Positions 197 through 19,369 of a DNA stretch of 21,488 nucleotides are shown here, piece after piece (within the stretch, counting starts at the first letter, position 1; each line of letters begins with the position of its first letter). This DNA is from a virus: the IMG/VR virus record IMGVR_UViG_3300033148_001175, positions 1 through 21,488 of that record; one strand, written 5' to 3'. Position numbers and translations under genes: made by a program. A model generated the notes under the pieces. It made no database searches, was not told the DNA's origin, and saw only the letters and a program-made list of their open reading frames with translations.

Positions 197-1438
197 TTAT
201 TCTAATACGATGCTTGATCCTAAGATATTATCAAGTACATCAGTGATGTTACCTGCAATACCTCCTGTCTCTGCCCAATCTGGCACATCTCCTGCCACAT
301 CTGGTACAGCTACCGTAAATAATTTCTTATTTCCGTGCTTTGTTAAATCTCCCTTAGTTGCATCTACTGAGATATTAATCTGCGGGTATCCATCTACAGA
401 ACTAGTAGACATAACTACTGATTCAAATAGGTTTGGTTCTCCAACGTGGAAGAATTCACCGTTATTTCCATTACAGAAGAATTCTAATTCTTTAGTTTGG
501 TTAACAGTACAAACTCCTGGGAATGCTTTTACTGAATTAGTAATAGGTGTATCTCCGAAATCTTCATCTAGTGTAGTATTCCATTGAACTACTTTATCAT
601 AAAATTTACCTGTAACGAACTTCTCAGACTCGCCTTGTAAACCTACACCCCAATCAGCAGTCGCTGCTGTAGAAGCATCTATTTCTTGCACTTCTGTAGT
701 AGCATAAGCACCTGTATCACCTTGGAAAGGTCTGTTTAAAGTAATTAAATCGCCATCTACACCTGTAACTAAATACACATCATCAGTTAAAGTAACTGTA
801 GTACTTGCTAATACTCCAATTCTAAAATAGTTTCCTACTGTAGCTCCTGCAGAGTTAGTGTCTGTAATAGTGGTTGATCCGTTAACTGCTCCTAGAGCAT
901 CAAAGTTAGAAGCTCCTGCTGCTACATTACAAATAGCTGAAAATCCAATTACATCTGAAGCTTCTCTAGAGAAGTTTAAGATACCACTAGCTGCTAATCC
1001 TGAAGCAATCTCATCTTGTGTAGCTGATAAATCAGAGTTGTATTGAGCATCCTTTACGTATACTCCACCGTGATTAGATTGGATAGACTGATTAATATTT
1101 AATCTGATTCTATACAATGTATCATTTACTACATCAATAGACCCTGTAGATCCATTATAACCTACGTAATCTAATTGCTCTACCTTTGCAGAGAATGTTT
1201 TAGAAGTTGTAGCCGTTACATTAGAAGGATTGATTACCTCTGATACTAATGGTTCAGCAGATCCTCTACCTACAGCTAGGATAAATTTTTCACCCGCTGT
1301 TCCTGTTGTAATTGCGGTACCTCCTGGAGTAAATACTCCAACTTCACCGTCAGCTAAAGCATCGATAGATGCTGCTTTTGTTGTAACATCGCCTGTCTTT
1401 CCTACAAGCAAATATTGGTAATCATTTTGTGATTGCAT
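197..1438 (-). CDS. Beta-rich virion structural protein
   Basis: 413 aa, ATG start, TAA stop. It is rich in Thr, Ser, Gly, Val and Ala with few charged clusters, no signal peptide, no membrane segment and only three cysteines, the composition expected of a beta-structured capsid-associated, tail or fibre protein. The N-terminus (YQYLLVGKTGDVTTKAASI) and the TGTAG-type turns support an extracellular or virion beta-sheet fold. It is the last gene before the operon terminator and lies 45 bases after the neck/ring-type gene, in the place where crAss-like phages carry further virion genes. I do not recognise a named family. A tail-tube, sheath-like or head-decoration role is possible but not shown. 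Confidence 0.75.
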   Translation of the reverse strand: MQSQNDYQYLLVGKTGDVTTKAASIDALADGEVGVFTPGGTAITTGTAGEKFILAVGRGSAEPLVSEVINPSNVTATTSKTFSAKVEQLDYVGYNGSTGSIDVVNDTLYRIRLNINQSIQSNHGGVYVKDAQYNSDLSATQDEIASGLAASGILNFSREASDVIGFSAICNVAAGASNFDALGAVNGSTTITDTNSAGATVGNYFRIGVLASTTVTLTDDVYLVTGVDGDLITLNRPFQGDTGAYATTEVQEIDASTAATADWGVGLQGESEKFVTGKFYDKVVQWNTTLDEDFGDTPITNSVKAFPGVCTVNQTKELEFFCNGNNGEFFHVGEPNLFESVVMSTSSVDGYPQINISVDATKGDLTKHGNKKLFTVAVPDVAGDVPDWAETGGIAGNITDVLDNILGSSIVLE

Positions 1439-1483
1439 TTGTTAAATTATTAGTTTATATAATATATTTTATTGATTTCAAAT

Positions 1484-2200
1484 TTATGTTATGTTCTTTG
1501 TTTCTTCCGAAACTGCTATTTGATATTCTTCTGGACTTGTAGATGCAGTAGCCATTCTAACTGCTATATCTACTATTTCCCTATGTGTTGACTGGTCTAA
1601 TTCACAATCTACTTGTGCTGTTGTTGTGCCATCCTTAGTATAAGGAGTAATTCCATTAGTACGTCTAATATATCTCACATCATATTGAGATATAGTGTAA
1701 TTCCCGTCTGTTATTACTTCGTGACGTTTAAGTTCACTGTCTCCAGGAGTTACCCTAGATCCTTCCATTCTCCAAGCCTTATCTGTTGAAGGTCTTTTAA
1801 ACGGGTTATTCTTATTTCTATTGTACTCATCTTCTGTAGTTGGTACTACTTCTACTATATTTCCATTATAACAATCATCATCAGATGCTATTACAATTTC
1901 TTCCTGTAGAGTGTATAGAAAATCACTCGGTAAATCAAAGAACGTTCCATTTGTGTGAACCCCTGTTTGTGTCGAAGAACTAGTAGTTATACTAGCAAAT
2001 GACTTAAGCTCATCAAAATCTTTCTTTCTCTCTTCAGTTTGTTCGAAGTCTCTATAAGGACTGTAACCTCCTCTAATAAAAACTTCTTCAGCTTTACTCA
2101 AGAATACACCAATCTCTCGATCAGTGTACCCCGGAGCTGATAAGCTGGTTATTCTATCACGTTGTAGATTAAACTCATATTTCATTTCATTAGCATCCAC
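1484..2200 (-). CDS. Putative neck/ring (head-tail connector) protein
   Basis: 238 aa. The N-terminal segment EMKYEFNLQRDRITSLSAPG followed by YTDREIGVFLSKAEEVF resembles the opening of a conserved Bacteroidetes-phage structural family annotated in crAss-like phages as a ring or neck protein; this link is from memory and moderate. The start is GTG at 2198-2200, whose G is shared with the TAG stop of the upstream gene (TAGTG), implying coupled translation. An in-frame ATG five codons later (2183-2185) is the alternative, but the residues before it fit the family opening better. Its place after the MCP fits an adaptor between portal and tail. No catalytic motif is visible. Confidence 0.65.
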   Translation of the reverse strand: MDANEMKYEFNLQRDRITSLSAPGYTDREIGVFLSKAEEVFIRGGYSPYRDFEQTEERKKDFDELKSFASITTSSSTQTGVHTNGTFFDLPSDFLYTLQEEIVIASDDDCYNGNIVEVVPTTEDEYNRNKNNPFKRPSTDKAWRMEGSRVTPGDSELKRHEVITDGNYTISQYDVRYIRRTNGITPYTKDGTTTAQVDCELDQSTHREIVDIAVRMATASTSPEEYQIAVSEETKNIT

Positions 2201-3100: not shown

Positions 3101-3364
3101 TTACGATTGGTTGTAGATAAATGAAGCCGTTTTAGTTGGATCCATTACCATAACTCCACCACAGTAATACTTCATTTCTTCCCATCCATCAACTGAAGTA
3201 GCAACTAATTTAGGAGCTGATCCATTAGGACTGAAAGGGTCTCTTAAACCTGGAATGTAAGCATGGATAACGTCTTGTCCTTTAACAGACACTTTCTTTA
3301 CATTAGCCTCACCGTTAGTAGAACCAATGTCGTAAACATCATATCTGTACGATTCAGTAACACC
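3101..3364 (-). CDS. C-terminal segment of the major capsid protein, after an in-frame TGA
   Basis: This segment continues the MCP frame for 87 codons past the TGA at 3365-3367 and ends at TAA 3101-3103. It begins GVTESYRYDVYDIGS and later reads VKGQDVIHAYIPGLRDPFSP, with the density and composition of real coding sequence. An internal ATG (3290-3292) could start a 63-aa product, but no promoter or ribosome site is seen, and the codons before it also look conserved. With this segment the MCP reaches about 489 codons, close to the usual crAss-like MCP length as I recall it. I read it as the C-terminus of MCP, reached either because the TGA is a sequence error (for example for TGG) or by readthrough. 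Confidence 0.7.
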   Translation of the reverse strand, partial: GVTESYRYDVYDIGSTNGEANVKKVSVKGQDVIHAYIPGLRDPFSPNGSAPKLVATSVDGWEEMKYYCGGVMVMDPTKTASFIYNQS

Positions 3365-4570
3365 TCAATCCGGGTGGAATTTCTTATTTCTATTTCTATC
3401 ATCATATTGACTGTTGATAGATAAGTTAAATTTAATGTGGTTAGGTCCTATAAACTCAACGAATTGACCACCAAAGTTCATTGCTCTGTTAGCAAAGTCA
3501 GAAGTAGTACTACCGATAGTAATAGTCTCTCTAGCCGGTGAGAATAACTGTGCGTTATTTTCTAAAGCTTTGTGGAACTGGTAAGCTCCTCTTTCACCTG
3601 TCAAAGCAACAAATGCTCTCTCATCCATATCTAATTTACCTTCTGAGATATCCATCAACTTAGCTGATAAATCATCAATTGAGAAAGTATTATAGTAAGA
3701 TGTATTAGAAGCTTCTGCTTGCTCTCTAAGACCTGATCCTTCAACGATAGAGTATCCGCTATCATCTTTTTGTTGGTATTCACCATTAGCTCCTCTGTTT
3801 GAAGTTCCGAACATTAACAATCTGTTAATATCTTCTCTGAACTGTCTGTCAAACATATAAGACTCATACTGTTGCCATAACAAGAAGTTTTGACCATTAG
3901 GACCAACGATTGCAGTTCCCATCTTACGGTCTTTCAAGTTACCCGGAGTCTTTTTCTCGATTCTGATGCTAGTGAAAGCATTTCTCATCGTGATGTGAGA
4001 CTTGTAGTGAATCTTACGGCCTTTAGCAGATAATGTTCTTGCAACTGGAGCATACTCTCTAGAGAATAACTTTCCTGCTACTAACTCTTCGTAAGGGACG
4101 AAATCAGTAGAAGATGATGCCATTAATTCACAAGTATAAACGATATTCGTACCATCTGGCACACCATCATCCTTAACTATAATAGGATAAAGTTCATTCT
4201 CTTCACCTACAATCTTTTCAGTTGCAGAGAACCAATCTTTAGGGAATACTAATTCAAACTGTGAAAAGTTAGCTCCTGGTTTATCAGTAGAAGTGATAGC
4301 AGTACCATCTATTCTACATTCAATCAAGGCGATATTATCTAAAGCTTGAGATTGAAGTTCCCAGATGTAATCTGTATCATCTTCGAATTCCTTGGTAGGG
4401 AATCTACTTAAAAAGTTTTCTAAATCCATACCAAAATTCTTTTGTTGGATTCTTGCAATAAGGTCAGAACCTTTTTGCGGGGATTGTCTCCAGATAGCAC
4501 CTAAATGGTTTTCGGTAGTTAAACCTTTCCAAGCCGCAGCGTCTATCATTTGTAACGGACTAATGTTCAT
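3365..4570 (-). CDS. Major capsid protein (HK97-fold expected), frame broken by TGA
   Basis: 401 aa before an in-frame TGA. It forms the icosahedral shell. The call rests on position (directly after portal and the scaffold candidate), on size once the downstream segment is added, and on text features seen in crAss-like capsid proteins, such as the arrangement ending in SQYDDRNRNKKFHPD. The N-terminus (MNISPLQMIDAAAWKGL) is helical, with Gln/Arg/Lys-rich stretches near 40-60. The ATG at 4568-4570 follows an A/T-rich leader without Shine-Dalgarno sequence. The codon after HPD is TGA; the frame then remains open for 87 codons (3101-3364). Loss of the last 87 residues would be expected to disable a capsid protein, so full-length protein is probably made. 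Confidence 0.8.
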   Translation of the reverse strand: MNISPLQMIDAAAWKGLTTENHLGAIWRQSPQKGSDLIARIQQKNFGMDLENFLSRFPTKEFEDDTDYIWELQSQALDNIALIECRIDGTAITSTDKPGANFSQFELVFPKDWFSATEKIVGEENELYPIIVKDDGVPDGTNIVYTCELMASSSTDFVPYEELVAGKLFSREYAPVARTLSAKGRKIHYKSHITMRNAFTSIRIEKKTPGNLKDRKMGTAIVGPNGQNFLLWQQYESYMFDRQFREDINRLLMFGTSNRGANGEYQQKDDSGYSIVEGSGLREQAEASNTSYYNTFSIDDLSAKLMDISEGKLDMDERAFVALTGERGAYQFHKALENNAQLFSPARETITIGSTTSDFANRAMNFGGQFVEFIGPNHIKFNLSINSQYDDRNRNKKFHPD

Positions 4571-4596: not shown

Positions 4597-5784
4597 CTAT
4601 TTAGTATTAAATTCTATAGCTGCAGTTAAATCTGTAGATACAGTTGTTCCTGCAGATCCTTTCTGTGAGCTTTTAGTAGGCATTGTTCTAGTTGAACTTA
4701 ACATTTTATTAAGGTCTTTAGTAGCAGCTGTTCCTGCTTCTCTTTTTACTTTGCTAAAATCAGTAAACCCTTTAGTTATAACATCTAAAGCATGCAGTCT
4801 AACTAAATACTCTGGATCATTATTAAATTTATCTATAACATCAGTAATAGCTTTTCCATCCTCTGTATATTTAACAGGCGTAGTTATAGAATTAAGTACT
4901 TTTTCTCTCTGCGTCTTATTTAACTTAACAAAAGGCAGTAAATCATTAACATTCTCTACATGCTTTTCTATAGTTTGTAGCATAGCTTTACTGTCTTGCT
5001 CTTCTTTTTCTCTAGATAGTCTAGTTTGCTCTCTAGCATCTTCTAACCTTTTAGTTTGAGAAGCTTTAAGTGCATTTAATGCATCTAGACTATCTTCAGC
5101 ATCAGTTCCTAAATCTATAGATTTCTGAGCATGTCTTTCAGCAGCATCTGCAGTAAATCCTTTATCTAAGAAATCTTGTTTAATTAACTCTTTTCTTAAA
5201 GGTGCATTCTCATCATTATTTAATGTATCTGTATTGATACTTTCTAATGCAAGATTATTACTATGTACCTCACGAAGAGTTTTATCCGGAACTCCATTTC
5301 TAATATCTTCTAAATATGCTTTTTTTTTATCATCCAATCCTGCTAATTCATTAGATTTAATCTGATCCGCTACAGCTTCAACTAATGCTTCTGCTGTATT
5401 TAATTCTTTTAATTCCTCATCGCTAAGGTTACTTAATACCCCCGACTCCACTAAAGTAGCCACAAAAGGAATGATTTCCTCATTGTTTGGAGAAGAAGGA
5501 GACTGACTACCATCTATATCATCAGGGGTATCAGTGTCTTTATTTTCATCTTCGTTGTCCCCTTCAGGTTCTCCGTTATTATCTTCAGGCTCAGTTACTA
5601 TGAGCTCTTCTATATTAATTTGTCCTTCTGGGGTAGCTTCTTTTGGGGCTTCCCCTTGTTCTGCTGGTGTATCATTATTTGTTTCGGCCTCTCCACTTTC
5701 CGAAATGATATCACCAATATTAATCATACCGTCAGCACCGCTATCGATGGTAGGTATAATTTGGTTGTCTCCTGTTGTTGTCAT
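4597..5784 (-). CDS. Putative scaffolding / capsid assembly protein
   Basis: 395 aa, TAG stop. Residues 1 to about 100 are strongly acidic and low-complexity (PEDNNGEPEGDNEDENKDTD) and contain a repeated motif, INIGDII near 21 and INIEELI near 56. Residues about 115-330 are predicted mostly helical with coiled-coil character (KRLEDAREQTRLSREKEEQD), and the tail is Ser/Thr-rich. This layout, and the place between portal and MCP, is that of scaffolding proteins in many tailed phages. It is 26 bases upstream of the MCP start. There is no protease motif to suggest a fused prohead protease. The role is inferred from context and composition, not from a recognised domain. Confidence 0.65.
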   Translation of the reverse strand: MTTTGDNQIIPTIDSGADGMINIGDIISESGEAETNNDTPAEQGEAPKEATPEGQINIEELIVTEPEDNNGEPEGDNEDENKDTDTPDDIDGSQSPSSPNNEEIIPFVATLVESGVLSNLSDEELKELNTAEALVEAVADQIKSNELAGLDDKKKAYLEDIRNGVPDKTLREVHSNNLALESINTDTLNNDENAPLRKELIKQDFLDKGFTADAAERHAQKSIDLGTDAEDSLDALNALKASQTKRLEDAREQTRLSREKEEQDSKAMLQTIEKHVENVNDLLPFVKLNKTQREKVLNSITTPVKYTEDGKAITDVIDKFNNDPEYLVRLHALDVITKGFTDFSKVKREAGTAATKDLNKMLSSTRTMPTKSSQKGSAGTTVSTDLTAAIEFNTK

Positions 5785-5846: not shown

Positions 5847-8291
5847 TCAATTTGCGCTATAGCTTTTTCCTAAAATTAAGTCTTCTTTGTTGTAGGTTTT
5901 GCTTTGGCTTCTGATCTTTTTAAATTTATCTTTCTCCATAGAATCGTGAGCCATCTTAGCCATATCAATACGTTCTGTAGTTCTTACCTTTTCAGCTTCC
6001 ACTTCATCAGGTATACCATCCGCATCTCTATCTGCTTGCATGCCAAATGCTTCTCCTTGTTGTTTAAGCATTTCTAAATCTAAAGCTCCTTGATTCTTCA
6101 TATCTTGAACCTGTCTAACATTCGCTAATTCAGCTTCTTTCTCCGCAGCTTGAGCTTGTATTTGTTCTGACTGCATCCTTTCGGCTTGCTCTGCATTTTG
6201 CTGTGCTGCTTGTTCTTTTCTCATCTCAGAAGCCTCTAATGTTCTTCTAATAGCAGCTGAGTTTGTAGAGGTCATTATAGTCATAAGATCTGAAAAATTA
6301 ATCTTGTCATTCTGTAATCCTGCTTGAGCTAATTGTTTCAGACTTTCATGGATCATAGTATCATCTCTAGAATCTCCTACAAATATTCCATATTCAGAAT
6401 CTACAAAGTCCTCTACATCGATAGTAGCTATTTGAGCAGTTGTATCATCTGCTACAAATTGTAACTTTTTATTCTTTTTATCTTGCCAAGCTATTTTAGC
6501 TGTCTCTAATCCTATAGTTAATACTCTCTTTTTCCAGTGATTATGTCCTGCAGACCAGTATTCTGTAATATTAGATGAACTACTTACTGATCTTTCTACA
6601 TTTCCTACTAATTCTCTTTGCTCGATTTGTCCTAATCTCTGAGCAGATACTCCTGATATTTCACCTAATTCCTGCTTAATATAAGCCATCATCTGAATAT
6701 ACATCTGGATAGTATTTCCTTGTTCCATATCAAGAACAGGAGAATTTTGTTGCATTTGACCTGCTAATTTTCCTTGTGCGGCTCCTTTTTTACCTTCTTT
6801 AAAGGCGTTATAAGGTACTGCTTTCATATTCTTAGCAAACCATAACCATTGTTCTACATCCCAACCTTCAGGAATTTCATGTACTGGAACTTTCATTATT
6901 CGACCCCAGTTAGCTGCTATTAATAGCTCTACATTATAATATAAAGCATTATACATGTATTGGTAAGGTTTCATCCTATCTACCAAAGACATAGCTCTAT
7001 TATCATTAGTATTATATATAGTACCAATTATTCCAGGATGGCATAAAGAAGGATTCTCCATACTTCTAAACTGCACAGGTCTTGGTTGTATTTTTAAATA
7101 TATACCATCAGTATCATCCTCTAAAGAAGAAGAACTCCAAGAGGAGATTTTATGTCCTTCCCACCATTCGCTTATCCATTCTTCTTTTTCTTCTTCTCCT
7201 CTATCTTTATCTATCTTATAAGAATCAGGCATAAGGAATTCCTGTTCATCTCCTTGCTCATCGAAGTACTTAACACGTTTCATTTTACGCATTGATTTCC
7301 AATAAACCTTGATAACTTTAATATTTCCATAATTATCAAAAGGAGTATCAAAATCCCCTAATCCATTTTCAAATCTAGCTGTGTCTATATTTCTATCTGC
7401 ATAATCAACTAGTAAAGGACTTAAAGCTAAATCTGGATTAGATCCTAAATCAAACCCAGAAGAATCAGTATCACCATCTCTAGAGAAATAATTATCAATC
7501 ATTGCTACCTGTGTAGGGGTTAATACATCATGGTAGTGATCTATAATTTGACCGGGGCTATAATAACCATCTACTACTATAATATCAGCATCCTCGACAT
7601 ATGAAGATTCTCCACTTCTAACTACATGTACATTTTTAGGATTTAATCTAGTAAATACAGGTTCTCCTGCTACTATATCCCATTGTCCTATCTCTTCTCC
7701 GGCTATAAGAACATCCTTATAGGCAGTATCCATTTTCATTTTCAGGTCTTGTTTTTCCCATAAGTATCGTAATACCTGGTCAGCTCTTTGCTCTCTTAAA
7801 TCCTTCCAAGTATAGTTCATATACTTTTGGTGGTAAGTTAAAGCGTCCTGAATTTCTTTTTCTGTAACATTATCCTTTGTAATAAGATTGGTAACTACTT
7901 GATTAAGTAATTCCTTTTGTTTTCTTTCTTTATCAGATACAGCATTCTCATTAGTTACTATAATATTCCAATTAAAGTGACGCTTTACTTCTTCTCCATA
8001 TAATAAATCAATCTTTGGATTCATTATAGGATAATTTTGCATTTTCCCTGGAGTAGACTCATTCTCAAACCCATATGGATTACAGGTCTTCTTTACATCT
8101 TCGGGATCAAGTATGTCTGAATAAAGATTGTAATTTATAGTTTTATTGTAAAAACTCTTTCGAAGTACATTATCTTCATGGTACAAAGACTGATGGGCAG
8201 CATTAACGCATCCTTTTCCCCATGCCGAACCGTTCTTTGTCTTCTGATAATCTGTCTTCTTTTGAGAAGGGAAATTGTATAATCCTGCCAT
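5847..8291 (-). CDS. Portal protein
   Basis: 814 aa, in the size range of crAss-like portals. It would form the dodecameric ring through which TerL pumps DNA. Support: it directly follows TerL; the N-terminal third carries the long helical and beta mix of phage portals; and a long helical, Gln/Ala/Glu-rich region (about 680-745, EQAERMQSEQIQAQAAEKEA) fits the barrel or crown helices. Near the C-terminus (754-765) is a calcium-loop-like motif, DRDADGIPDEVE, of thrombospondin type-3 kind. The C-terminal peptide GKSYSA is shared with TerL, and the DNA under it is an exact 19-base repeat. It ends TGA immediately followed by TAG. Confidence 0.85.
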   Translation of the reverse strand: MAGLYNFPSQKKTDYQKTKNGSAWGKGCVNAAHQSLYHEDNVLRKSFYNKTINYNLYSDILDPEDVKKTCNPYGFENESTPGKMQNYPIMNPKIDLLYGEEVKRHFNWNIIVTNENAVSDKERKQKELLNQVVTNLITKDNVTEKEIQDALTYHQKYMNYTWKDLREQRADQVLRYLWEKQDLKMKMDTAYKDVLIAGEEIGQWDIVAGEPVFTRLNPKNVHVVRSGESSYVEDADIIVVDGYYSPGQIIDHYHDVLTPTQVAMIDNYFSRDGDTDSSGFDLGSNPDLALSPLLVDYADRNIDTARFENGLGDFDTPFDNYGNIKVIKVYWKSMRKMKRVKYFDEQGDEQEFLMPDSYKIDKDRGEEEKEEWISEWWEGHKISSWSSSSLEDDTDGIYLKIQPRPVQFRSMENPSLCHPGIIGTIYNTNDNRAMSLVDRMKPYQYMYNALYYNVELLIAANWGRIMKVPVHEIPEGWDVEQWLWFAKNMKAVPYNAFKEGKKGAAQGKLAGQMQQNSPVLDMEQGNTIQMYIQMMAYIKQELGEISGVSAQRLGQIEQRELVGNVERSVSSSSNITEYWSAGHNHWKKRVLTIGLETAKIAWQDKKNKKLQFVADDTTAQIATIDVEDFVDSEYGIFVGDSRDDTMIHESLKQLAQAGLQNDKINFSDLMTIMTSTNSAAIRRTLEASEMRKEQAAQQNAEQAERMQSEQIQAQAAEKEAELANVRQVQDMKNQGALDLEMLKQQGEAFGMQADRDADGIPDEVEAEKVRTTERIDMAKMAHDSMEKDKFKKIRSQSKTYNKEDLILGKSYSAN
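5853..5871. repeat. 19-bp direct repeat, copy 1 (3' end of portal gene)
   Basis: TGCGCTATAGCTTTTTCCT is identical to 8363-8381. On the minus strand both copies encode GKSYSA in the same frame, at the C-termini of portal (residues 808-813) and TerL (772-777). Confidence 0.9.
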
Positions 8292-8338: not shown

Positions 8339-10693
8339 CTAAGAAATGTTCCAATTTTTAAGTGCGCTATAGCTTTTTCCTCTTCCTCTACCTGCTCCAA
8401 ATGATCTATAGGCATTATCCCAAAACTTATCTTTATCTGAGTTATCGTCTCTAAAACTACTACTATCTCCTACTGTATTTAATCTATCCTCTCTTAGTAA
8501 AAATAACATGCCCATTGCAGATACTCTATCGTAGTTCCCATTAGGTTCCCAAGAGGCTAGTTCTTTTAAATACGCAATAGAACGTATCTTATTAATATTT
8601 GATACTATTGTTTCCGGAGCTTCATCATCTTCTTCATTAGGAACAGTATAGGTACTAACTAGCCAATCTGCCTGTAATCTACGAGCATGTTGATTGATAG
8701 CCTTTCCAGAATTGGTACCTTTAGATTTATTTCCTGTTAAATTAGACTTTACTAAATCTGTACGCTTCAAAGAATCCAAAGTATCACAAAGCATATGCAA
8801 AGAATAATTATTTTTCATGTAGGCATAAAACCCTTTCTTATCTGCTTCATAGTTACAAATAGCATTATAGTAAATAAGTAATTTGTGTGCTATAATATAA
8901 GAAGCCTCTGCAGTACTGGCCCTCCCTGTATACTCTGCTACAGGCTCGTCTAATAATAGATCCCAAACAAACATAGAGAATAATGAGTTAGTAGTAGAAC
9001 TATCATCATCAATTGGATCCATTCCTGCTATATATCTCCTTGAAGGTACGTTACCTTCTTGTGTTTTATAGGGTACTTTGAATATCTCTACTCCTCCTTC
9101 CTTATTTATATTATTTTTAATAGGGAATTCTCTTAATATATTAATATCTGGAGCATTAGACCACTTAACTTTTCCAGGTCCTTCAAAGACTAATTCTCCT
9201 ATATAGTGAGAAGATAAAAAGGATTCTCTAGAAGGTAGTATCTGAGCTAAGCGTTCTTTAATATCTCCTGCTGGGAATAAGGTACCTTCTACTCTTAATA
9301 CGGCTTCTTGTGGAACAATAGGTTCCTCGGCCATTCTTTGTGTAAGAGCAGTAGGGTCTGGTGAATTATTCTTAATATACCAACGATCTGTTAATACCTC
9401 TATAAGAGCTTTAATAATATCACTTTCTCCTGTCTCCGGGTCAAAACATCCTCTTCTGTTCATATATGCAGGCCAAAAGAATCCGCAATCGCTGCTACCA
9501 TTTACTCCTCTATCATAAATATTAGGTATTCCATAAATAGAATATCCCTTGGGATTATAGAATAACTTCTCTGCTCCAGCCCATGCTGCTCCAGTTGTAC
9601 CTCCTGTACCTCCGGCTAACATTAGACAGAATCCAGTATTACCTTCTTCTGCCGCTTTTAAGTTTACATTCCAAGCTTTCTCTAATCCCCTAAATAAACC
9701 CATTTCTTCATAAGCAATAAGACTTCCTCTAATACCCCTTGCTTTATCTGGGTTATCTTTTAATGAAATTCCCGATACTGTGGATTTTAGACCTTTCCTC
9801 GCTCCGTACTCATCTACAAACCCTAATTGAATAGTCATTTGTTGTTTACTATCTACAAGGCGCATTCTAGGTAAAGGAGTATGTTCTCCTATATGATCTA
9901 ATACATCCATAACCTTACCGAATAAGCCTTGATCTCCTGCTAAAAAGGATTTCTCACTCGCTAAATGAAAACAAGTATTTTTAGAACCTGTATATACATA
10001 CATATTTCTTGGTGACATTGCAGCAGATTTAAAACTAAACCCAATACCTCTACACTTTAAAAATACTGCATGTAATCCATATTCTTGAGCTTGGTCTAGG
10101 TAGTGAAAGTATAGGTAATCTCCTGCATATACTTTTGGAAATGCTGTTATCCTTTCCCCCTTCTTCTTAGCCCCTTTCTTGCCTGGATCTTTAATTCTTT
10201 CTAGCCATTCATCAAATGTCTCATCCTCTTCTCCTTTTACAATTGCTATAGGAGAATAGTTTAAATAGAAGTAGTACCATCCGGGTATCCATTCTCCATC
10301 AGATTTTCTAGCATATCCATGTCTCCATCTTGCTTGCTCTCTAGCCCAGAATCGTGCATATTCACTTTTAGGGTTTGCACTCCTTTTAATACTAGTATAA
10401 ACACCATGTTTTTCAAAATGTATAGCCGCAGGTCTAAAATAATCCATGTCCTCTAAAATATGAGGATTAGTTAAATCTACTTGTATTCTACCTCTAGGAT
10501 CTTCTACACCTCTAACTTTAATTTTAGGTCTATCTTTTGCAAACCCTCTTATTTCTTCAGGTTGTATTAATTTATTTACATAAGGAATAGACTCTAATAG
10601 GTCTATTAAGTCTGCATATACCCCTTTAGGTAATGCTTCTATTAACTCTTCTGTTAATTTTGTTTGGTATTTATTAGTCTGGTTGAATTCCAT
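8339..10693 (-). CDS. terL: Terminase large subunit
   Basis: 784 aa DNA-packaging motor (ATPase plus headful or site nuclease). ATPase part: a Walker-A-like loop at about 214-223 (CRGIGFSFKS, a deviant P-loop with K222) and Walker B with catalytic glutamate at 325-330 (LIAYEE). Nuclease part (RNase H-like): D559 in YIAGMDPIDDDSS, an acidic residue in NYEAD (E616), and D722 in NYDRVSAMGML. The glycine-rich stretch near 360-370 (AGGTGGTTGAA) is typical of the coupling region. The length is normal for crAss-like TerL. The ATG at 10691-10693 overlaps the preceding gene by 20 bases. The C-terminal GKSYSA motif is shared with portal. Confidence 0.92.
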   Translation of the reverse strand: MEFNQTNKYQTKLTEELIEALPKGVYADLIDLLESIPYVNKLIQPEEIRGFAKDRPKIKVRGVEDPRGRIQVDLTNPHILEDMDYFRPAAIHFEKHGVYTSIKRSANPKSEYARFWAREQARWRHGYARKSDGEWIPGWYYFYLNYSPIAIVKGEEDETFDEWLERIKDPGKKGAKKKGERITAFPKVYAGDYLYFHYLDQAQEYGLHAVFLKCRGIGFSFKSAAMSPRNMYVYTGSKNTCFHLASEKSFLAGDQGLFGKVMDVLDHIGEHTPLPRMRLVDSKQQMTIQLGFVDEYGARKGLKSTVSGISLKDNPDKARGIRGSLIAYEEMGLFRGLEKAWNVNLKAAEEGNTGFCLMLAGGTGGTTGAAWAGAEKLFYNPKGYSIYGIPNIYDRGVNGSSDCGFFWPAYMNRRGCFDPETGESDIIKALIEVLTDRWYIKNNSPDPTALTQRMAEEPIVPQEAVLRVEGTLFPAGDIKERLAQILPSRESFLSSHYIGELVFEGPGKVKWSNAPDINILREFPIKNNINKEGGVEIFKVPYKTQEGNVPSRRYIAGMDPIDDDSSTTNSLFSMFVWDLLLDEPVAEYTGRASTAEASYIIAHKLLIYYNAICNYEADKKGFYAYMKNNYSLHMLCDTLDSLKRTDLVKSNLTGNKSKGTNSGKAINQHARRLQADWLVSTYTVPNEEDDEAPETIVSNINKIRSIAYLKELASWEPNGNYDRVSAMGMLFLLREDRLNTVGDSSSFRDDNSDKDKFWDNAYRSFGAGRGRGKSYSALKNWNIS
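8363..8381. repeat. 19-bp direct repeat, copy 2 (3' end of terL)
   Basis: Identical to 5853-5871; both encode the C-terminal peptide GKSYSA. The flanking bases differ, so the identity is confined to the peptide-coding stretch. Confidence 0.9.
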
Positions 10694-11261: not shown

Positions 11262-11562
11262 TATCAAAATTTACGTAATCCCATTCTCCTGTAGGACACA
11301 CATTAGTAGGAGTGTTAGACCTTACCTTTACTTCCAAAGCACATCCACACCCATTATAGTATCTACCCTTAACTCTTGTATTTCCATTATAAATAAAGGA
11401 CTTAACTGCTCTCTTTTGTTTCTTTTTAGAGCATATTCCATTATCATTTAGGTAACATCCTGCACATATCTCAGCACGTTCTTTAGCTAATTTCTCGATC
11501 TTCTTATCTTTGAATACATAGTTCTTAAGACCGCTTAGTATATCTGTTAGTTTATCAAGCAT
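11248..11562 (-). CDS. Zinc-ribbon-like conserved phage protein
   Basis: About 104 aa from ATG at 11560-11562; an upstream in-frame TTG at 11572-11574 would add four residues. Six cysteines are arranged as CAGC (37, 40 counting from the TTG), C48, a GCGC pair (76, 78) and C93, a pattern that suggests binding of one or two zinc ions or another metal. The basic middle (KKKQKRAVKSF) could contact nucleic acid. Proteins with this Cys layout are common beside packaging genes in Bacteroidetes phages, as I recall them; function is unknown. It overlaps the groEL stop by 8 bases and the next gene by 14. It ends with TGA, with TAA three codons on. Confidence 0.75.
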   Translation of the reverse strand: MLDKLTDILSGLKNYVFKDKKIEKLAKERAEICAGCYLNDNGICSKKKQKRAVKSFIYNGNTRVKGRYYNGCGCALEVKVRSNTPTNVCPTGEWDYVNFDNETV

Positions 11563-13195
11563 TGTTCGAATCAAAGTTTTTTATACCTGTAGGTAATACA
11601 TTATTATCTTTATTTACTATCATGCAATTAACAGTTAAAAGACCTCCTGCAATAGATGCGGCATTCTCTAAAGATACTCTAGATACCTTAGCCGGATCTA
11701 TAATCCCTTCTTTTATCATGTTACTTACATATCTATCATCTTTAGCGTCATACCCTTTAGAATAGTCAGAATCCTCTATAGTATTTAATACTACATCAGG
11801 ACTTACACTAGAGTTAGTAGCTATTTGACGTAAGGGTGCTTCACATGCATTCCATACAATATCTATACCTAGTCTCTCATCTACATTACGACCTTCAGGT
11901 TTAGTACTATTATTTCTAGCCTTTAATAATGCAGTTCCTCCTCCTGGAACAATTCCTTCTTCTAATGCAGATGATACGGCACATGTAGCATCTTCTATTC
12001 TATACTTCTTCTCTTCTACATCTACTTCATTATATCCTCCTACGTATATTTGAGCTACTCCACCAAATAAAGATGCTATTCTATTATCATGCAGAGCTAC
12101 TAATTCAGGTTTTCTATCTTTATTAGCTTCTCTAATACCATTTTTTCTAGCTAATATCTTTTCCGGATTTCCACCAGGTTTAACAATAATAGTTTCAGAT
12201 CTATCTATGATAACTTGTTCTGCAGTTCCTAATTTATCTAAAGGTACTCTTTCTAACTGGTTTAGTAACTCCCTACTTATAAAAGTTCCTCCTGTTATAA
12301 TGGCCAAATCTTCTAACATGAAACTTCTCATATCTGCAATAGATGGAGGTCTTACACATACAGCAGTGAAAATACCTGCTTTGGTATTCTCCAAAAGAAA
12401 AGATAAAGCAAACTTATCTACTTCTTCCGCTATAATAAGTAAAGATCTTTTATTTCCATCTTTAATAATCTTATTAATGATAGGCATAATCTCATTATGG
12501 TCGCTCATTTTCTGGTCAGACACAAGAATATAAGGATTGTCTAATACTGTCTTAGTATCATCCTTTCCTGTAATGTATCCATTTGATACATATCCTTTTT
12601 CCCAAACTGCTCCTTCTTTTATCTTAACATAGGTTTCAGTATTATTAGAATCAGTCATTACAACTCTTCCTTCTTTAGGTAACCCATTATGAGCATCGGC
12701 TACGATGATACCTATTTCCTCATCATTATTAGCAGAGATAGTAGCTACCTGTTTAATGTAATCCGATCCAGGATTAACGTCAGTAGCCAAATCTGTAATG
12801 GATTTAGATAATACACTAGTAGCTTTATCAATACCTCTCTTAAGATCCATCGGGTCAGCTCCTGCTACGATATGTTTTAACCCTTCATTGTATATATTTC
12901 TAGCTAATACAGTAGAGGTAGTAGTACCATCTCCGGCACCATCCGCTGTTTTAGAAGCAGCTTGTTTCACTAACTGCGCCCCTATATTTTCAGCTTTGTC
13001 TTCCAAAAATACTTCATTAGCTACACTTACGCCATCTTTAGTTATCTTAGATGTATTGTATTCTCTTCCTAGAATAACATTCTGCCCTTTTGGTCCTAAT
13101 GTTACAGATACGGCATCAGCGAGGATATTTATACCTCGCTGAATCTTATTCCGTACTTCCTCCTTAAATATAATGTCTCTTACGTCTCCAAACAT
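11555..13195 (-). CDS. groL: GroEL-type chaperonin, phage-encoded
   Basis: 546 aa, full family length. Each GroEL ring folds client proteins with ATP and a GroES lid. Seen: LGPKG near 33-37, the phosphate-binding loop DGAGDGTTT at 85-93, RIEDA with D402 (the counterpart of the catalytic Asp398 of E. coli), and EEGIVPGGG at 412-420. The apical domain is diverged, and the C-terminus ends in KNFDSNNA without the hydrophobic GGM tail of cellular GroEL. It follows the GroES-like gene by 10 bases and lies in the head-assembly operon, so capsid or packaging proteins are the likely clients. It ends TGA directly followed by TAA. Confidence 0.95.
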   Translation of the reverse strand: MFGDVRDIIFKEEVRNKIQRGINILADAVSVTLGPKGQNVILGREYNTSKITKDGVSVANEVFLEDKAENIGAQLVKQAASKTADGAGDGTTTSTVLARNIYNEGLKHIVAGADPMDLKRGIDKATSVLSKSITDLATDVNPGSDYIKQVATISANNDEEIGIIVADAHNGLPKEGRVVMTDSNNTETYVKIKEGAVWEKGYVSNGYITGKDDTKTVLDNPYILVSDQKMSDHNEIMPIINKIIKDGNKRSLLIIAEEVDKFALSFLLENTKAGIFTAVCVRPPSIADMRSFMLEDLAIITGGTFISRELLNQLERVPLDKLGTAEQVIIDRSETIIVKPGGNPEKILARKNGIREANKDRKPELVALHDNRIASLFGGVAQIYVGGYNEVDVEEKKYRIEDATCAVSSALEEGIVPGGGTALLKARNNSTKPEGRNVDERLGIDIVWNACEAPLRQIATNSSVSPDVVLNTIEDSDYSKGYDAKDDRYVSNMIKEGIIDPAKVSRVSLENAASIAGGLLTVNCMIVNKDNNVLPTGIKNFDSNNA

Positions 13196-15887: not shown

Positions 15888-16208
15888 TTATTTATCGTTT
15901 TGTGTCGGATCGTACATAGTGTAACAAACCGTTATTTCTTCTCCTTTTTTAATGTCTTGTATAGAAGTAAGGGTATATATAATACATGATTCTCTTCCTT
16001 CCATATCCAATTTCCCTACTTTTTTACAGTTAGGTTCTGATGAATGGTTATAAAACGAACCGATAGCAGTACGTATAGGTACGTGTTTATAAAGATAATG
16101 AGATATACCAAGAGAAGTTCCCCCTGGTATATCTTCAGTAGCAAATAGACCTAACCCTTCAATGTCAGATTCTTTAATAGTAAGTGATTTAGGAAGAGGT
16201 CTATACAT
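15888..16208 (-). CDS. SET-domain protein (putative lysine methyltransferase)
   Basis: 106 aa, a minimal SET domain. Seen: the opening SDIEGLGLFATEDIPGGT (14-31), the core NHSSEPNC (54-61) that forms the SAM and lysine pocket, and the closing KKGEEITVCYTMYD (87-100), matching GEEIT-x-x-Y. It would transfer a methyl group from SAM to lysine of an unknown protein. There is no SET-I insert and no post-SET zinc cluster, so substrate specificity may come from elsewhere. It lies between a fibre-like gene and membrane genes. Possible targets are host proteins or phage virion proteins; neither is shown by the sequence. Confidence 0.82.
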   Translation of the reverse strand: MYRPLPKSLTIKESDIEGLGLFATEDIPGGTSLGISHYLYKHVPIRTAIGSFYNHSSEPNCKKVGKLDMEGRESCIIYTLTSIQDIKKGEEITVCYTMYDPTQNDK

Positions 16209-18899: not shown

Positions 18900-18900
18900 G

Positions 18901-18971
18901 TTGCGTTAGAAGGGGTCGAACCTCCAATTTTTGGCCCAAAACCAAACGTGCTGCCATTACACTATAACGCA
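18901..18971 (-). tRNA. tRNA-Gln (TTG)
   Basis: Acceptor strands TGCGTTA and TAACGCA pair over seven bases. The anticodon stem TTTGG/CCAAA encloses TTTTGGG, giving anticodon TTG with U33. A T arm with GTTCGA is present. No CCA is encoded. It is last in the minus-strand tRNA cluster. Confidence 0.9.
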
Positions 18972-18977
18972 ATATAG

Positions 18978-19049
18978 AGCTTGGAGCAAGGATCGAACTT
19001 GCAACTTATAGTTTTGCAGACTATACACCTCACCGTCAGTTTCCCAAGC
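18978..19049 (-). tRNA. tRNA-Cys (GCA)
   Basis: Acceptor GCTTGGG pairs with TCCAAGC. Anticodon stem ATAGT/ACTAT encloses CTGCAAA, anticodon GCA. The discriminator base is U (position 18978), as expected for tRNA-Cys identity. T arm contains GTTCGATC. CCA is not encoded. Confidence 0.88.
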
Positions 19050-19056
19050 ATTTTAG

Positions 19057-19133
19057 TCGGCAAGGCAGGATCCGAACCTGCGTGTGACCAGCTAACCTTT
19101 CAACCGGATATCAGCCGGAGGGTATACTTGCCG
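19057..19133 (-). tRNA. Aberrant tRNA-like gene, identity unresolved
   Basis: The acceptor strands CGGCAAG and CTTGCCG pair perfectly and the T arm (GCAGG, TTCGGAT, CCTGC) is normal, but the middle does not fold as a standard tRNA. Two candidate anticodon loops exist: CTGATAT in a perfect CCGG/CCGG stem (anticodon GAT, Ile, but placed where the D arm should be) and GGTTGAAA in a weak TATCC/GGTTA stem (TGA or GAA, with an 8-base loop). The region between acceptor and T arm is about four bases longer than usual. It may be a degenerate tRNA or one with an unusual fold. No UCA suppressor reading fits. Confidence 0.55.
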
Positions 19134-19138
19134 TACTG

Positions 19139-19212
19139 TTGCAGGACTGGGACTCGAACCCAGGACCTTGGAGTTATGAGCCCCACGAGCTGACCAGCTG
19201 CTCTACCCTGCA
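19139..19212 (-). tRNA. tRNA-Met (CAT)
   Basis: Acceptor TGCAGGG pairs with TCCTGCA. The D arm contains AGCTGGTCAGCTC, the anticodon stem TGGGG/CTCCA encloses CTCATAA (anticodon CAT), and the T arm CTGGG/CCCAG is perfect. The paired first base (T1-A72) argues against an initiator, which has a mismatch there; a lysidine-type Ile tRNA is not excluded. Confidence 0.9.
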
Positions 19213-19218
19213 ATATTG

Positions 19219-19291
19219 TGGAACCACCTGGTAACGATCCAGGATCTCCTGATTTTCAGTCAGGCGCAGACACCGTGTTTGCTATAGTTCC
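19219..19291 (-). tRNA. tRNA-Phe (GAA)
   Basis: Acceptor GGAACTA pairs with TGGTTCC. The anticodon stem CCTGA/TCAGG encloses CTGAAAA, anticodon GAA. T stem CCTGG/CCAGG has the unusual loop ATCGTTA in place of TTCGAAT. Confidence 0.9.
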
Positions 19292-19296
19292 ATTTG

Positions 19297-19369
19297 TATA
19301 ACGGGTTGGGCTCGAACCAACGGCCTCGTACTCCCAAAGTACGTAATCTACCAACTGATATACCGCTAT
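19297..19369 (-). tRNA. tRNA-Pro (TGG)
   Basis: Acceptor ATAGCGG pairs with CCGTTAT. D arm TATCAGTTGGTAGATT, anticodon stem CGTAC/GTACG with loop TTTGGGA (anticodon TGG), T arm GTTGG/CCAAC with TTCGAGC. It is the first tRNA of the cluster, about 16 bases after the terminator at 19385. Confidence 0.92.

Follow-up and report, generated by a model that had tools for sequence, protein, structure and literature searches.

The viral DNA analysed here, a stretch of 21,488 nucleotides referred to below as the window, encodes on its minus strand a major capsid protein (MCP) of the Crassvirales whose reading frame is interrupted by one in-frame TGA. It is highly probable that the gene is otherwise intact, that a nonsense substitution changed the glycine codon at position 402 into TGA, and that the stop represents an error, or else a variant of the phage that is defective or minor, and not a regulatory device.

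The interrupted capsid gene and its neighbours

The MCP frame begins at an ATG at position 4570 and runs for 401 codons to the residues ...NRNKKFHPD, directly after which the TGA stands as codon 402. Past the stop the same frame remains open for 87 codons (GVTESYRYDVYDIGS...FIYNQS) before a TAA at 3101-3103, giving 489 positions in all with the TGA counted in (Table 1). When the frame was re-read on the minus strand, the coordinates and description in an earlier account made from the letters of the window (the sequence-only reading) proved exact.

With the TGA read through, the product matches the Pfam family Crass_capsid (PF23898) from residue 3 to residue 487, with 455 bits where the curated cut-off is 27, which is the full-length match expected of a Crassvirales MCP. 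It is assigned by PHROG to 'major head protein', and its sole sequence match of solved structure, extending over the whole length, is gp32 of phicrAss001. The full-length matches to PF23898 and gp32 bear out the identification of a crAss-like MCP gene and show that the frame is no chance ORF, since it follows the Crassvirales MCP family from end to end. Gene order in the window (terminase large subunit, portal, a conserved gene, MCP, two conserved genes and auxiliary capsid protein) likewise provides the head-gene neighbourhood of terminase, portal, MCP and auxiliary capsid protein by which a Crassvirales MCP is recognised, and those core genes that are comparable with relatives, the MCP aside, are full length and free of internal stops. 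With the family as a whole (PF23898; phicrAss001 gp32, PDB 7QOF) the window protein thus shares a full-length match, gene neighbourhood, HPxGGV motif and C-terminus, and it differs in that the first glycine of HPxGGV reads TGA in this contig.

Two further genes of the window may be mentioned. A GroEL chaperonin gene (PF00118; PHROG groEL; 11555-13195, minus strand), of a kind also present in Cellulophaga phage phi14:2, lies close to the head genes. The phage also encodes, at 15888-16208 on the minus strand, a small protein with a SET domain (PF00856), which is of the lysine-methyltransferase type.

Table 1. Features of the window discussed in the text
Feature	Positions	Strand	Basis
MCP codons 1-401, preceding the in-frame TGA	3368..4570	-	ORF reading and PF23898 match
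In-frame TGA, MCP codon 402, glycine site in relatives	3365..3367	-	Homologue comparison
MCP codons 403-489 and TAA; conserved C-terminal region of the MCP, which has the HK97 fold	3101..3364	-	Homologues, structure
Intact conserved gene at the phicrAss001 gp31 position, between portal and MCP	4597..5784	-	Homologues in 82 loci
Portal protein gene, intact; ends in TGA directly followed by TAG	5847..8291	-	Homologues, PHROG
Terminase large subunit gene, intact	8339..10693	-	Homologues, PHROG
tRNA cluster: Pro(TGG), Phe(GAA), Met(CAT), irregular Ile(GAT) call, Cys(GCA), Gln(TTG)	18900..19369	-	ARAGORN, Rfam

The codons downstream of the stop

The 87 residues encoded beyond the TGA are 53-73% identical to those of six relatives, in the same range as the 60-68% found for residues 1-401, and this upholds the proposal that the continuation belongs to the MCP. 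A family of homologues ending at the TGA would have made the downstream segment spurious, as the sequence-only reading pointed out; all of the full-length relatives examined run past this position to the usual C-terminus, and none stops there. In an alignment of 56 sequences, the window MCP with glycine at position 402 disrupts none of the otherwise invariant columns. These comparisons show that the downstream codons are genuine MCP coding sequence, conserved like the rest of the gene. Because the C-terminal part is conserved and no invariant column is broken, any lesion would have to be recent, and the MCP gene has been under normal constraint up to the very recent past, if not to the present.

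The predicted structure of the read-through MCP (mean pLDDT 75.9, pTM 0.66) has the capsid chains of phicrAss001 as its best match (E 4e-40), with high rmsd values to its matches that make domain placement loose and limit the use of the model to fold assignment and secondary structure. Residues 403-489 are modelled as a short helix and five strands, including the longest strand of the protein (463-475). Taken literally, the TGA would yield a 401-residue MCP without the last 87 residues; to judge from the model, a product ending at residue 401 would be deprived of the long strands at the C-terminal end of the HK97 fold and would presumably be non-functional and unable to form a capsid.

Since the MCP genes of two relatives, L181 and L164, have inserts that precede codon 402 by 8-11 codons, the TGA was also considered as a remnant of an intron or homing endonuclease, a reading rejected because the MCP frame of the window has no extra or lost codons there. 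In L181 (around 1555-2400) and L164 these inserts stand at residues 391-394 of the MCP, and NUMOD4/HNH endonuclease ORFs are present in both where inserts interrupt the gene. L164 is interrupted after positions 4082, 4662 and 5320, and besides the insert at residues 391-394 its MCP has others that follow about residues 189 and 281. None of the Rfam intron families gave a match at its cut-off; group I introns have been reported in MCP genes of crAss-like phages (PMC7886860).

The residue at codon 402

Alignment of homologous MCPs at the codon following HPD, a check that the sequence-only reading had called for, placed glycine at codon 402 in all 135 of the matches from the surveyed loci that cover it, encoded mainly by GGT or GGA, in a survey that is biased to the extent that part of it was collected by a pattern containing GG; in that part, only 11 distinct MCPs have the second search motif. 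The bias was countered by pattern scans of IMG/VR at the motif with codon 402 varied, the window's own record possibly lying outside these scans. GGN was present at the codon in at least 120 contigs, and a codon starting with a base other than G in one contig, where it specifies serine; TRR (any stop or Trp) and codons with G in the first and A, C or T in the second position were each found in none of the scanned contigs. Codon 402 is therefore, by comparison with its homologues, a nearly invariant glycine site at which tryptophan is never seen. Both GGA and TGG had been put forward as the codon from which the TGA arose; the glycine codon agrees with the homologues, which are all Gly but for the one Ser, and the tryptophan codon, with no contig in its favour, does not.

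Origin of the stop

A single-base substitution would have turned this glycine codon into TGA, either as a sequencing or assembly error in one metagenomic contig or as a change in a true but defective or minor-frequency phage variant. Of the 4,401 possible single-base changes in the MCP gene of the window, 244 create a stop; one event of this kind in a large uncurated contig collection is unsurprising. When the window was compared with the phage collection by megablast, no other contig of the same phage emerged, and the exact DNA around codon 402, with any first base, was not found in IMG/VR; a peptide search yielded no close MCP in genome contigs, and the nearest in IMG/VR was 58% identical (68% by profile). 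We regard an error as somewhat more likely than a real variant, the point counting against it being that the remaining sequence contains no other obvious error. The earlier proposal of 'error or mutation' is accordingly favoured as a whole, by relatives that lack the stop and by the lack of recoding signs in the fragment. Counting against a lesion of either kind is the unseen portion of the genome, roughly three quarters given relatives of about 100 kb, which could carry a suppressor tRNA.

Stop codon usage and tRNA genes

The TGA in the MCP gene is the only one in frame among the approximately 6,120 codons of the 26 genes of the window. TGA also terminates 8 of the 25 other genes, including those for portal and GroEL, and in four of the eight it forms an ATGA stop-start overlap with the next gene. 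No tRNA with a UCA anticodon was detected in the 21,488-nt fragment by ARAGORN and Rfam. A single in-frame TGA at a glycine site, together with the TGA-ended genes and the lack of a UCA tRNA in the fragment, supports the sequence-only reading in its view that full recoding does not fit.

The tRNA-Cys(GCA) at 18978-19049 (minus strand), missed by ARAGORN and matched by Rfam at 39.7 bits, was dismissed as a candidate suppressor, its anticodon being GCA and not UCA. An irregular tRNA-like gene at 19056-19144 (minus strand) overlaps tRNA-Met and is called Ile(GAT) by ARAGORN, although its acceptor and anticodon stems contain mismatches and its variable arm is long; it is not reported by Rfam. An alternative 7-bp acceptor stem is visible in this gene, and its anticodon arm is non-canonical.

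Stop codon reassignment is detectable by the approach used here: the MCP gene of the crAss-like contig L127 (IMGVR 3300001869_000005) contains three in-frame TAG codons and its neighbouring genes contain more, the many in-frame TAG of the contig aligning mostly with Gln or Lys/Arg, and L127 is likely to be a genome with TAG reassigned to Gln. In the survey of 137 distinct MCP loci, a lone TGA without general signs of recoding was seen in one contig besides the window (L197, IMGVR 3300009588_000106; 2.8 kb), which counts in favour of a single substitution in the window. Its MCP gene (670-2133, minus strand) resembles that of the window in being crAss-like and intact apart from a lone in-frame TGA, and differs in that the TGA occupies the site of a conserved Trp (position 113), the eight other Trp codons of the gene being TGG. 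This TGA may be a lesion or an early TGA-to-Trp reassignment. A further contig, L209 (CAKZOW010000092.1; 3.5 kb), carries a crAss-like MCP and is binned in an 'uncultured archaeon' genome; the archaeal placement is probably a binning error.

Alternative explanations

Genuine readthrough had been suggested as a source of full-length and truncated capsid protein, through programmed passage of some ribosomes over the UGA, and the intact and conserved downstream frame is what such a process requires. A readthrough gene is also expected to have a stop that is conserved in relatives and a stimulatory RNA structure beside it, and here the stop is absent from all relatives (no IMG/VR contig with a stop, against at least 120 with Gly), and the 125 nt around the TGA are no more stably folded than shuffled versions, 41 of 200 of which equal them (z -0.76). 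The MCP family has no short form, its members have Gly at the codon and never Trp, the residue usually expected from UGA readthrough by tRNA-Trp, and an inefficient process seems implausible for the most abundant protein of the virion. With a stop that is not conserved, RNA that is not unusually structured and no short form, the suggestion gained no positive evidence, and we consider it very unlikely. The TGA could instead mark an early stage of reassignment, served by a suppressor tRNA whose gene lies beyond the fragment. Reassignment of TGA to Trp or of TAG to Gln, mostly in late genes, and an ongoing accumulation of reassigned stops are known in crAss-like phages (PMC7886860), and the window resembles such phages in having a standard stop in frame in a hallmark late gene. 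It departs from them in having one such stop, where homologues have Gly and not Trp, no suppressor tRNA in view, and a third of its other genes ended by TGA, the late portal gene among them, where TGA read as Trp (code 4) would be expected to show several in-frame TGA at Trp sites of late genes and avoidance of TGA as terminator; in addition, no stop anticodon occurs among the ARAGORN-nameable tRNAs of ten longer relatives. We judge early reassignment highly improbable.

Because the TGA falls at a glycine site, genetic code 25 was looked at separately. If the phage infected a host with TGA as a glycine codon, either exclusively or in addition to one using the standard code, codon 402 would be a normal Gly codon there; phages compatible with both codes, with several differing stops clustered at gene ends, have been proposed (PMC10746230). 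All 8 TGA-ended genes of the window are followed by TAA or TAG within 10 codons; the idea that these act as dedicated back-up terminators, for which the window itself gave some indication (p 0.015, for a test picked post hoc), was abandoned, since relatives are similar for every stop type, with a second stop within 10 codons in 61-70% of their core genes whatever the first stop. Glycine at the site is unremarkable as a chance outcome, GGA making up a quarter of the window codons one step from TGA. The window shares with the code-25 and code-11/25-compatible phages of Gracilibacteria and Absconditabacteria (PMC10746230) a TGA at a Gly site and second stops near gene ends, and differs in that clear code-25 phages are dense in in-frame TGA at Gly sites while the window has one TGA against 218 GGA codons, in that its second stops are equally common in its relatives, and in that the relatives which are named infect Bacteroidota. 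A code-25 host is barely conceivable, and we give equally little credence to the fuller form of the idea, that the TGA is real and decoded as Gly, either in a host with that reading of TGA or by a phage tRNA encoded outside the fragment, capsid being made only where TGA is a sense codon and the other genes, with their paired stops, working under both codes.

Implications

Were the stop both real and decoded, capsid production would hang on the decoding of one codon, a striking kind of switch. The present case instead advises caution, in that a hallmark gene broken by an isolated in-frame stop in one metagenomic contig is weak evidence of recoding. A lone stop of this kind can be told from true reassignment by a test against homologues, which asks what residue is expected at the site, how many such codons there are, and whether the codon still serves as a stop elsewhere.
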